Of a stretch of DNA of 64,000 nt, positions 49,862-52,283 are shown one piece after another. Location: contig NZ_LT984803.1 in assembly GCF_900250115.1 (NCBI RefSeq), forward strand, positions 3,003,583 to 3,067,582, in the 5' to 3' direction. The DNA is from Cupriavidus taiwanensis (GTDB lineage Bacteria > Pseudomonadota > Gammaproteobacteria > Burkholderiales > Burkholderiaceae). The position numbers and the translations under genes were made by a program. Position 1 is the stretch's first letter, and each line of letters begins with the position of its first letter. The notes under the pieces are model-generated. The model ran no database searches. It saw nothing but the letters and a program-made list of their open reading frames with translations, and was not told the origin of the DNA.

Positions 49862-50932
49862 TCAGTCCCTGGCCAGCTCGCGGCATACCTCGGCGACGCG
49901 CCGGGTTGCCTCAGGCCTGGCCAGTCCGCGCGCCAGGCGCGCCATGTCTTTCAGCTGCGGCCGGGTCAGGCTGGCAATGGTCCGCGCCAGGCCCTCGGCC
50001 GTCAGGTCTTTCTGCTGCACGAGCAGGGCCGCGCCCTGGCTCGACAAAAACTGTGCGTTGGTGGTCTGGTGGTCGTCCACCGCATGCGGGAACGGCACGA
50101 ACAGCGCCGCCACGCCCGCCGCGGCCACTTCCGACACCGTCATCGCGCCGGCGCGGCAGATCACCAGGTCGGCGTCGGCATAGGCGCGCGCCATGTCGTC
50201 GATGAACGGCAGCGTCTGCGCCGCCACCTGCGCCGCGGCGTAGTTGGCGCGCAGCGTGTCGATCTGCTTCGCGCCCGCCTGGTGCGTCACCACCGGGCGC
50301 TGAGGCTGCGGCAACAGCGCGATGGCCTTGGGCACCACCTCGTTGAGCGCGGCGGCGCCCAGGCTGCCGCCCACCACCAGGATGCGCAGCGGACCGTCGC
50401 GACGGTCGTAGCGCGCCTCGGGGTTATCCAGCTGCGCCAGCTCCTCGCGCACCGGGTTGCCGGTCCATTCGCTGCCGGGCAGTGCATCGGGGAACGCGCA
50501 CAGCACGCGGTCGGCCACCCTGGCCAGCACCTTGTTGGCCAGCCCGGCGATCGAGTTCTGCTCGTGCAGCACCAGCGGCCGGCCCAGCAGCGACGCCATC
50601 ATGCCGGCCGGGAAGGTGATATAGCCGCCCATGCCCAGCACCACGCTAGGACGTACCCGCCGCAGCGCGGCGAGGCTCTGCCAGAACGCGCGCAGCAGGT
50701 TCAGCGGCAGCAGGAACTTGGTCACCAGCCCCTTGCCGCGCAACCCGCCGAACTGGATGAACTCCATCGGGATGTCGTGCTTCGGCACCAGCGTGGCTTC
50801 CATGCCAGTGCGGTTGCCCAGCCAGACCACGTTCCAGCCCTGCGCGCGCAGCGCCTGCGCGACCGCCAGCCCGGGGAACACATGTCCCCCGGTGCCACCG
50901 GCCATCACGAGCAGGGTGCGCGGCTGCGTCAT
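49862..50932 (-). CDS. murG: Undecaprenyl-PP-MurNAc-pentapeptide GlcNAc transferase
   Basis: 356 aa GT28 transferase that makes lipid II from lipid I on the inner face of the membrane. G-loops [15 protein letters not shown] and [12 protein letters not shown], and the UDP-GlcNAc site [20 protein letters not shown]. Its ATG overlaps the stop of a 38-codon ORF as ATGA, with GGAGGG as ribosome binding site inside that ORF; in most relatives murG directly follows ftsW. Confidence 0.97.
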
Positions 50933-51045
50933 ACCTTCCCTCCGCGCATCAATACACGGTTTTGGCTTCGGCCGCTGCGCTTAACTTCCTGCAATCGCAG
51001 GAAGTTAGCCTTCGCCGAAATCGCGTGCTGCTGCGTTCCGGTCAT
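50929..51045 (-). CDS. 38-aa coupled ORF between ftsW and murG, C-terminus copies FtsW
   Basis: ATG at 51045 overlaps the ftsW stop (ATGA) and its TGA overlaps the murG start (ATGA). It begins [10 protein letters not shown], has a basic middle ([12 protein letters not shown]) and ends [10 protein letters not shown]. These last ten residues are identical to the end of FtsW. The DNA copies (50928-50963 and 51041-51076, 36 nt each) differ at five positions, all synonymous. Both starts use the same GGAGGGAAGGT ribosome binding context. A perfect 11-bp hairpin, TAACTTCCTGC/GCAGGAAGTTA (50982-51007), lies inside the ORF. Either this is an expressed micropeptide or a scar of partial duplication by a short palindromic insertion. 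I know of no described homologue. Confidence 0.55.
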
Positions 51046-52283
51046 ACCTTCCCTCCACGCATCAGCACGCGATTTTCATAATCAATGCGAAGCAGGATCG
51101 CCAGCGCCACGCAGTTCATCAGGATGCCCGAGCCGCCATAGCTGACCAGCGGCAGCGTCAGCCCCTTGGTCGGCAGCAAGCCCAGGTTCACACCCATGTT
51201 GATAAAGGTCTGCCAGCCGATCCAGACGCCGATGCCCTTGGCCACCAGGCCGGCAAAGGTGCGGTCCAGCTGCAGCGCGGTGCGGCCGATATTGAAGGCG
51301 CGCCGCACCAGCCAGTAGAACAGCACGATCACCACCAGCACGCCGATAAAGCCGAATTCCTCGCCAATCACGGCGAGGATGAAGTCGGTATGCGCTTCGG
51401 GCAGGTAGTGCAGCTTTTCGATGCTGCCGCCCAGCCCCACGCCGGTCCATTCGCCGCGGCCGAAGGCGATCAGCGAGTGCGTGAGCTGGTAGGCCTTGCC
51501 CAGGGCGTTGCTCTCTTCCCATGGATTCAGGTAGGCAAAGATCCGCTCGCGCCGCCAGGGCGACGCCGTGATCAGCAGCGCGAACGCGCCCACCGCCACC
51601 CCGACCAGCCCGGCGAAAAGCTTGCCGTTGATGCCGCCGAGGAACAGGATGCCCATCGCCACCGCGGCGATCACCAGGAATGCGCCCATGTCGGGCTCCA
51701 GCAGCAGCAGCAGACCCACCACCACCACCGCCACGCCCATCGGCAGGAAGCCCTTGGACACGGTCTGCATCCACTCCTGCTTGCGCACGGTGTAGTTGGC
51801 GGCGTACAGCACCACCGCCAGCTTCATCAGCTCGGACGGCTGGAAGTTCATCACGCCCAGCGGAATCCAGCGCCGCGCGCCGTTCACGCCCTTGCCGACG
51901 AACGGCACCAGCACGATCACCAGCAGGATCAGCGCAACGATAAAGAGCTTGGGCGCGTAGCGGTCCCACACCTTGACCGGCACCTGGAACGCGGCCAGCC
52001 CGACCGACAGGCCGATTCCCAGCGCGAATGCATGCCGCATCAGGAAGTGGCTTTCGCGGTAGTTGGCGTAGCGCGGCGAGTCCGGCAGCGCGATCGAGGC
52101 CGAGTAGACCATCACCAGGCCGAGCGCGAGCAGCACGATCGAGACCCACAGCATGGGCTGGTCGTACTCCATCATGCGCGAGCGGGTCGGCTTGACGCCC
52201 GACACCGCGTCGCGCAGGCCGCCCCAGGCATTGCCGATGGTGGCGCCGATAAATCCGCTGCGCTTGACCTGTGCGTCGTTCAT
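51042..52283 (-). CDS. ftsW: Septal peptidoglycan glycosyltransferase FtsW (SEDS)
   Basis: 413 aa SEDS polymerase with about ten helices that works with FtsI at the septum. ATG 52283 overlaps the murD stop (ATGA); longer frames upstream are spurious. Conserved stretches are [47 protein letters not shown] and [14 protein letters not shown]. The cytoplasmic C-terminus ends [12 protein letters not shown], the segment duplicated just downstream. Confidence 0.97.

Follow-up and report, generated by a model that had tools for sequence, protein, structure and literature searches.

The micro-open reading frame (micro-ORF) located between ftsW and murG of Cupriavidus taiwanensis is, with a probability that we put at roughly 0.75, a member, located at ftsW-murG, of a family of short palindromic inserts. 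This reading accounts both for the anatomy of the insert and for its coupling to the flanking genes. The window, which is the whole stretch of DNA that was analyzed, comprises 64,000 nucleotides of the C. taiwanensis genome.

The insert between ftsW and murG of C. taiwanensis

The anatomy given in the initial annotation of the micro-ORF was confirmed. The ATG of the micro-ORF overlaps the ftsW stop codon and its own stop codon overlaps the murG ATG, in both cases as ATGA, its final ten residues are those of FtsW, GGAGGG precedes both the micro-ORF and murG starts, and the 11-bp hairpin TAACTTCCTGC-GATT-GCAGGAAGTTA is present in the micro-ORF. The two copies of the ftsW end had been reported to differ at five bases, all synonymous. 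This holds for the stretch from AAAA to TGA, but a sixth difference, located further upstream, replaces E by Q, and the copies are identical at 30 of 36 positions. The first third of the micro-ORF (A′) reproduces the ftsW end as its reverse complement, a feature absent from the initial annotation. The insert is 113 nt long in the C. taiwanensis genome, and the micro-ORF is its sole content, with no recombinase gene of its own. By eye, the N-terminus of the micro-ORF, MTxxQQ, resembles the MurG N-termini of some relatives.

Table 1. Features of the ftsW-murG junction in the window.
Feature	Position	Strand	Remarks
micro-ORF	50929..51045	-	38 codons; overlaps both ftsW and murG by ATGA
murG	49862..50932	-	Pfam Glyco_transf_28 N- and C-terminal domains
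ftsW	51042..52283	-	Pfam FTSW_RODA_SPOVE; 3′ end exact, 5′ end approximate (listed open frame extends to 52379)
A1, ftsW end in use (GAAAATCG...GGTATGA)	51042..51077	-	GGAGGG and micro-ORF start within
Stem I 5′ arm, inside A1 (AAATCGCGTGCTG)	51063..51075	-	
A′, inverted copy of ftsW end (CAGCACGCGATTT), stem I 3′ arm	51018..51030	-	
Palindromic core	50962..51019	-	sole strong copy found in genome
Central hairpin of core	50979..51009	-	13 bp, one bulged A, compensatory changes across relatives
A2, second ftsW end copy	50929..50964	-	source of the GGAGGG and ATGA of murG

The predicted folding energy of a 156-nt stretch was -71.5 kcal/mol, whereas 200 shuffles averaged -48.45 (z = -6.4). The core of C. 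taiwanensis was recovered at E = 8.7e-19 by a covariance model whose building set included this very copy, and the next non-overlapping match in the genome had an E-value of 0.58. A search of Rfam returned nothing above the gathering score (best E-value 4.1, 9.2 bits versus 88).

Distribution of the unit and of its palindromic core

The ftsW-murG junction was read in 60 Cupriavidus genomes. Fifteen of these carry the unit (G000, G001, G005, G007, G009, G011, G012, G016, G023, G028, G036, G044, G050, G052, and G056); G016 has two units, and G009 and G052 each have at least two. The junction was empty in 41 genomes, ftsW and murG overlapping directly by ATGA, three genomes harbored other inserts, and the single junction outside these classes was that of G048. 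Every translated Cupriavidus unit comprises 38 codons, and the sole length change seen among the units was one extra base in a contig-edge copy in G052. The unit is therefore neither absent from all close relatives nor prone to frequent frameshifts, the two situations that the initial annotation had set against its own claim.

The three other inserts were a diverged micro-ORF (G033), an unrelated palindromic repeat (G015, C. laharis), and an 11-codon ORF (G042). The insert of G015 (L017/L033) is an inverted repeat, CCCGCGCAGGCGGGGA...TCCCGCCTGCGCGGGAATGACGG, located in the ftsW-murG overlap; it carries a copy of the final 22 nt of ftsW and yields a 43-codon ORF that, here too, runs from ATGA to ATGA. 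The ORF of G042 (Cupriavidus sp. D384; L155/L038) encodes MTAYRIARGIA, is bordered by ATGA on both sides, and is devoid of the palindromic core. The insert of G033 (L016) and the second unit of G044 (L168) are diverged units of 35 and 34 codons, respectively, which retain GCC-ACAATCG and the gene-end copy in the absence of a recognizable palindrome.

The distribution of the unit was compared with a tree of ftsW and murG comprising 57 Cupriavidus genomes (all except G046, G048, and G052). The 14 carriers in this tree required 12 changes (gains or losses), of which at least 9 fall on well-supported branches. Shuffling of the carrier labels gave a mean of 12.8 changes, and 171 of 500 shuffles were as low as 12. 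Since the observed number was no lower than with shuffled labels, presence of the unit is not clustered by descent. Such a distribution would also arise from frequent loss of an old unit.

Outside Cupriavidus, an 18-mer was searched for in 299 genomes of the family, allowing one mismatch, and was found in 8 genomes belonging to two genera, in all cases at the ftsW-murG junction as ORFs of 42 or 39 codons. In the protein database, the micro-ORF peptides are listed as hypothetical proteins of Cupriavidus, Burkholderia, and Paraburkholderia, with 59 proteins at E ≤ 0.001. The G050 peptide has an identical counterpart in the database, assigned to a strain named C. alkaliphilus; the junction of C. 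alkaliphilus ASC-732 (L031) is empty.

The core is a palindrome of the form TTCGGCGnAGGCTAAC-hairpin-GTTAAGCGnAGCGGCCGnAGCC. A covariance model was built from 24 core sequences, in the alignment of which 98.7% of the cells are paired, with 15 both-side changes versus 5.0 in shuffles. At E ≤ 0.01, the core was detected in 98 of 399 genomes of the order Burkholderiales and in 49 of 158 genera, often at the 3′ ends of housekeeping genes; the search used strict filters, the E-values are rough, and 11 of the 98 genomes rest on E-values of 0.001 to 0.01. Owing to these filters and to the limit of 13 scored candidates per genome, copy numbers are lower bounds. Near-identical tandem units were observed in G016, G175, and G347. 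A 95-nt query had no match in plasmid and phage collections. Viral contigs gave 9 matches to one 16-mer, two of which appear by eye to contain the full core. The latter two, L374 (position 9343) and L376 (position 4516), are IMG/VR contigs classed as viral; the core of L376 begins 10 nt past a long ORF, and that of L374 comes after a GGAAAACCGGCGC...GCGCCGG stem. In L222 (G360), two cores are located within palindromes of about 200 nt (CTAACAGGCCGTTGAAAAAC...GTTTTTCAACGGCCTG; positions 1440-1660 and 2770-2990), which flank small ORFs that are toxin-antitoxin-like by eye, an arrangement reminiscent of integron cassettes.

Anatomy of the unit, target site, and origin of the gene ends

The units display a recurring anatomy, gene (a b spacer rc(a) core) a* b*, at the motif GA(A/C)AA near the stop codon. 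The gene is terminated by A1, the inverted piece A′ pairs with A1, and the second gene end, A2, is found beyond the core. This anatomy was analyzed starting from 118 matches in 92 loci (including L091, L092, and L101, which came from the MurG search), which yielded 88 non-redundant units with sufficient flank. Of these, 77 were taken as first in their array, although the filter let a few later units through (for example L224 at 1501 and L264 at 988). Beyond the core, a direct copy of the gene end scored above all 25 swapped controls in 38 of the 77 units (about 3 expected) and an inverted copy before the core did so in 24 (about 3 expected), leaving 39 and 53 units, respectively, in which the copy did not exceed all controls. 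For the match between the inverted piece and the sequence that follows the core, 9 of the 77 units outscored all 25 swapped controls. In a register-aware test, the A1:A′ stem exceeded all 50 shuffles in 40 of 73 scoreable units. Of the 44 units for which at most one of 50 shuffles did equally well, 28 begin exactly one base past the direct copy. GA(A/C)AA marks the site of 36 of the 44, a motif with a frequency of 0.6% per position; the A-run was partly built into the search, but not the GA.

A same-strand frame of at least 150 codons ends between -60 and +5 nt from the core in 45 of 71 units, versus 19 of 71 for the opposite strand and 25 of 1099 random places. Among the 58 upstream frames listed (one of them twice), 40 were submitted to NCBIfam, which identified ftsW (7), nrdA (4), alanine transaminase (3), glmS (3), acs (2), serS (2), and one each of argF, pyk, smpB, tkt, metK, folE2, proB, mraY, and an ABC substrate-binding protein (weak). 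Ten of the 40 frames had no NCBIfam match. Pfam added gapA (L235), a second smpB (L240), and VWA-domain proteins for two of these ten (L223 and L281), and supported, as a second mode of evidence, the identification of ftsW upstream of the L092 unit. The frame chosen for L242 matched no family in NCBIfam or Pfam.

Some weak matches lay outside ftsW, at the 3′ ends of two genes that Pfam identified as a cysH-type gene and a branched-chain amino acid permease gene. The cysH product (Pfam PAPS_reduct) ends in (K/R)DSKECGLHEQNIKH in all 16 empty Cupriavidus relatives that were read and in RDTKECGLHEGNLRS(A/V)PVSAKANFA(Q/G)QS in the carriers G022 and G054. Behind the cysH core, KDSKACGLHEQNIKH is found in G022 and, as judged by eye, a remnant of KDSKACGLHEQNIKH in G054. 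Comparison of G022 with the 16 empty relatives gave identities of 83-93% for the gene body, 57-71% for A1, and 76-93% for A2. The gene end in use is therefore distant from that of the empty relatives and the sequence beyond the core is close to it, indicating that the unit arrived with a foreign gene end and that the native end was displaced. At cysH in G022 and, by eye, in G054, the replacement end was thus carried in and the native end left as a direct repeat, as in integrative elements. The permease gene ends in TAG in its three carriers (G022, G028, and G054) versus TGA or TAA in all 28 empty relatives shown (38 were found empty).

The ends of ftsW were compared in 13 of the 15 Cupriavidus carriers, the ftsW end of G009 and G052 being unreadable. 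In C. taiwanensis, A2 shares 35 of 36 bases with the ftsW end of G002, the closest empty relative, versus 31 for A1. This is in agreement with the proposal that the synonymous differences stem from the gain of a diverged ftsW end, although the carriers do not all agree: in G001, G005, G007, and G050, the match to the ftsW end of empty relatives, at 35-36 of 36 bases, is that of A1, not A2. The identity of A1 between carriers was not clearly raised. The direction of displacement is therefore claimed at cysH and not at ftsW, the 36 nt of the ftsW end being too conserved.

This anatomy is explained if (a b spacer rc(a) core) enters at GA(A/C)AA, just ahead of the stop codon of a conserved gene. 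The unit comprises a copy of the last tens of nucleotides of the gene, a spacer, A′, which repeats the first part of that copy in inverted orientation, and the palindromic core. At most sites, A2 looks like dead DNA. At ftsW-murG, A2 holds the ribosome binding site and start codon of murG and must therefore stay joined to ftsW by translation, so that the sequence between the two ends is found only as ORFs leading from the ATGA of ftsW to that of murG.

Coupling, RNA pairing, and proposed mobility of the unit

Translational continuity was evaluated at 36 insert-bearing junctions, of which 33 contain the core and 3 the other Cupriavidus inserts; G009 and G052, whose ftsW ends were unreadable, are not among them. 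The junctions are mutually related and hence do not represent 36 independent events. An ORF begins in the ATGA of ftsW in all 36 and ends at the murG start in 32; a second ATGA-linked ORF closes the chain to murG in L167, L168, L199, and L308. The gapless chain from ftsW through the ORF to murG, as proposed for C. taiwanensis, was thus found at every insert-bearing junction that was read. The core is read as S(A/V)(K/Q/E)AN... in most junctions and as FR(R/C)RLTS in L278, L285, and L294. Conservation of the ATGA chain in spite of two core frames suggests that coupling, rather than the peptide, is what has been kept.

Pairing between A1 and A′ (stem I) was analyzed in 22 ftsW units (16 distinct rows). 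All 13 positions of A′ paired with its own A1 in 21 units, and 12 did so in the remaining one; the averages were 11.5 with the A1 of other species and 8.2 with its own A2. In the alignment, 99.5% of the cells are paired, with 30 both-side changes versus 8.7 in shuffled alignments (none of 500 as high). Stem I encloses the ribosome binding site and start codon of the micro-ORF, and the latter is therefore probably translated mainly by ribosomes finishing ftsW.

Two other functions can be considered for the insert at this junction. A small-protein gene, the 38-42 residue peptide of which would itself work, for example in the divisome, would fit the fixed length of the ORF (38 codons in Cupriavidus, 42 or 39 in the two other genera), the 19 invariant columns in 13 sequences, the number of database homologs, and the ATGA on both sides. 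However, the core is maintained as a paired structure, three units are read in another frame (FRRRLTS instead of SAKAN), the unit is missing from most Cupriavidus genomes, the palindrome also follows genes that need no such ORF, and relatives have other tails (NPFSM, NHSMM, NLVAM, and NRVPM) in place of the FtsW-like one. Selection on the peptide, as suggested in the initial annotation, is not supported by these observations, and we consider a functional peptide quite improbable. A cis-acting RNA switch, in which stem I would sequester the ribosome binding site and set the output of murG, has somewhat better prospects, although we regard it as unlikely. The switch is suggested by the location of the ribosome binding site and start within stem I, by the compensatory changes, by the 12 G-U cells versus a single unpaired cell in this 13-pair stem, and by the arm CCTCCCC of g11, which pairs with the ribosome binding site itself; against it, A1:A′ pairing is also present at the ends of other genes, and the stems of the wider set of units show no G-U excess (9 G-U, 10 A-C). 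Stem I may be a side effect that has been put to use at ftsW-murG, which is compatible with the insert explanation. The unit may also affect murG translation.

The origin of the units may also be viewed differently. Foreign DNA could have spread by ordinary homologous recombination, or an old unit could have been lost frequently. Either would dispense with mobility of the unit as such and is in line with the unclustered carriers of the Cupriavidus tree and with the units of several genera at the same junction. This scenario seems rather unlikely to us, since the cysH body of G022 is Cupriavidus-like up to the insertion point with the native end right after the core, and since units are found at more than a dozen different genes. 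A scar of slippage or tandem duplication would produce direct repeats and near-identical tandem units such as those described above, but neither a core common to 49 genera nor a gene end unlike that of the host is expected from local slippage, making this origin very improbable.

The units probably move as such, through some enzyme, into the same gene of other species, and would as a rule push the native end aside. More tentatively, with the odds somewhat against it, they may form a class of enzyme-less homing micro-elements of about 110 nt in which A′ (8-25 nt) acts as a base-pairing guide to the target gene end; each unit would carry its address and a replacement end, pass between genera, and be kept translatable where genes are coupled. 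Candidate mobilizers were considered. A reverse transcriptase was present in 9 of 20 genomes (19 of them carriers) and TnpB in 2 of 20 carriers; neither is universal, each being absent from several multi-copy genomes. The same applies to the Y1 transposase (PF01797), which had no match in six multi-copy genomes: G338 had 0 matches, and G407, G465, G501, G572, and G673, with 7-13 core matches each, were outside the 243 Y1-matching genomes. We know of no excised form of the unit.

The unit shares features with several known systems. As for REP/RAYT (Y1) elements, it contains a short imperfect palindrome with an unpaired base (a bulged A) and an apparent foot tetranucleotide (by eye GnAG here, GTAG or GTGG in REPs), and it is present in many copies in some genomes and in tandem arrays; those REP consensus rows of PMC2817692 that were compared by eye include no match to the core. 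The unit differs from REPs by its location at gene 3′ ends in the sense orientation, by the gene-end copies on both sides, by the GA(A/C)AA target, and by the absence of Y1 matches mentioned above.

Integrative elements inserting at gene 3′ ends bring a copy of the end that makes the gene whole again, the old end persisting as a direct repeat. The unit resembles them in this respect at cysH but is only about 110 nt long, has no integrase gene, and carries an extra inverted copy that pairs with the restored end. The Rickettsia palindromic elements are short palindromes tolerated as open frames within coding sequences; here too a short palindrome is kept as an open frame, but at the gene end and with copied gene ends, the frame at ftsW being a separate coupled ORF. 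Further systems considered were integron attC sites and bridge or omega RNA guides. A literature search, which included six core strings as letters and had most subscription journals and preprints outside its scope, retrieved no description of the palindrome family.

The odd micro-ORF, a 'hypothetical protein' in the database, is probably the visible tip of a family of elements present in about a quarter of the sampled Burkholderiales genomes. Its strict anatomy makes the mode of insertion testable, namely what acts at GA(A/C)AA and whether the inverted arm chooses the target. A conserved micro-ORF that overlaps its neighbors by ATGA is not necessarily a small-protein gene, and the unit provides a natural test of the translational coupling of ftsW and murG.
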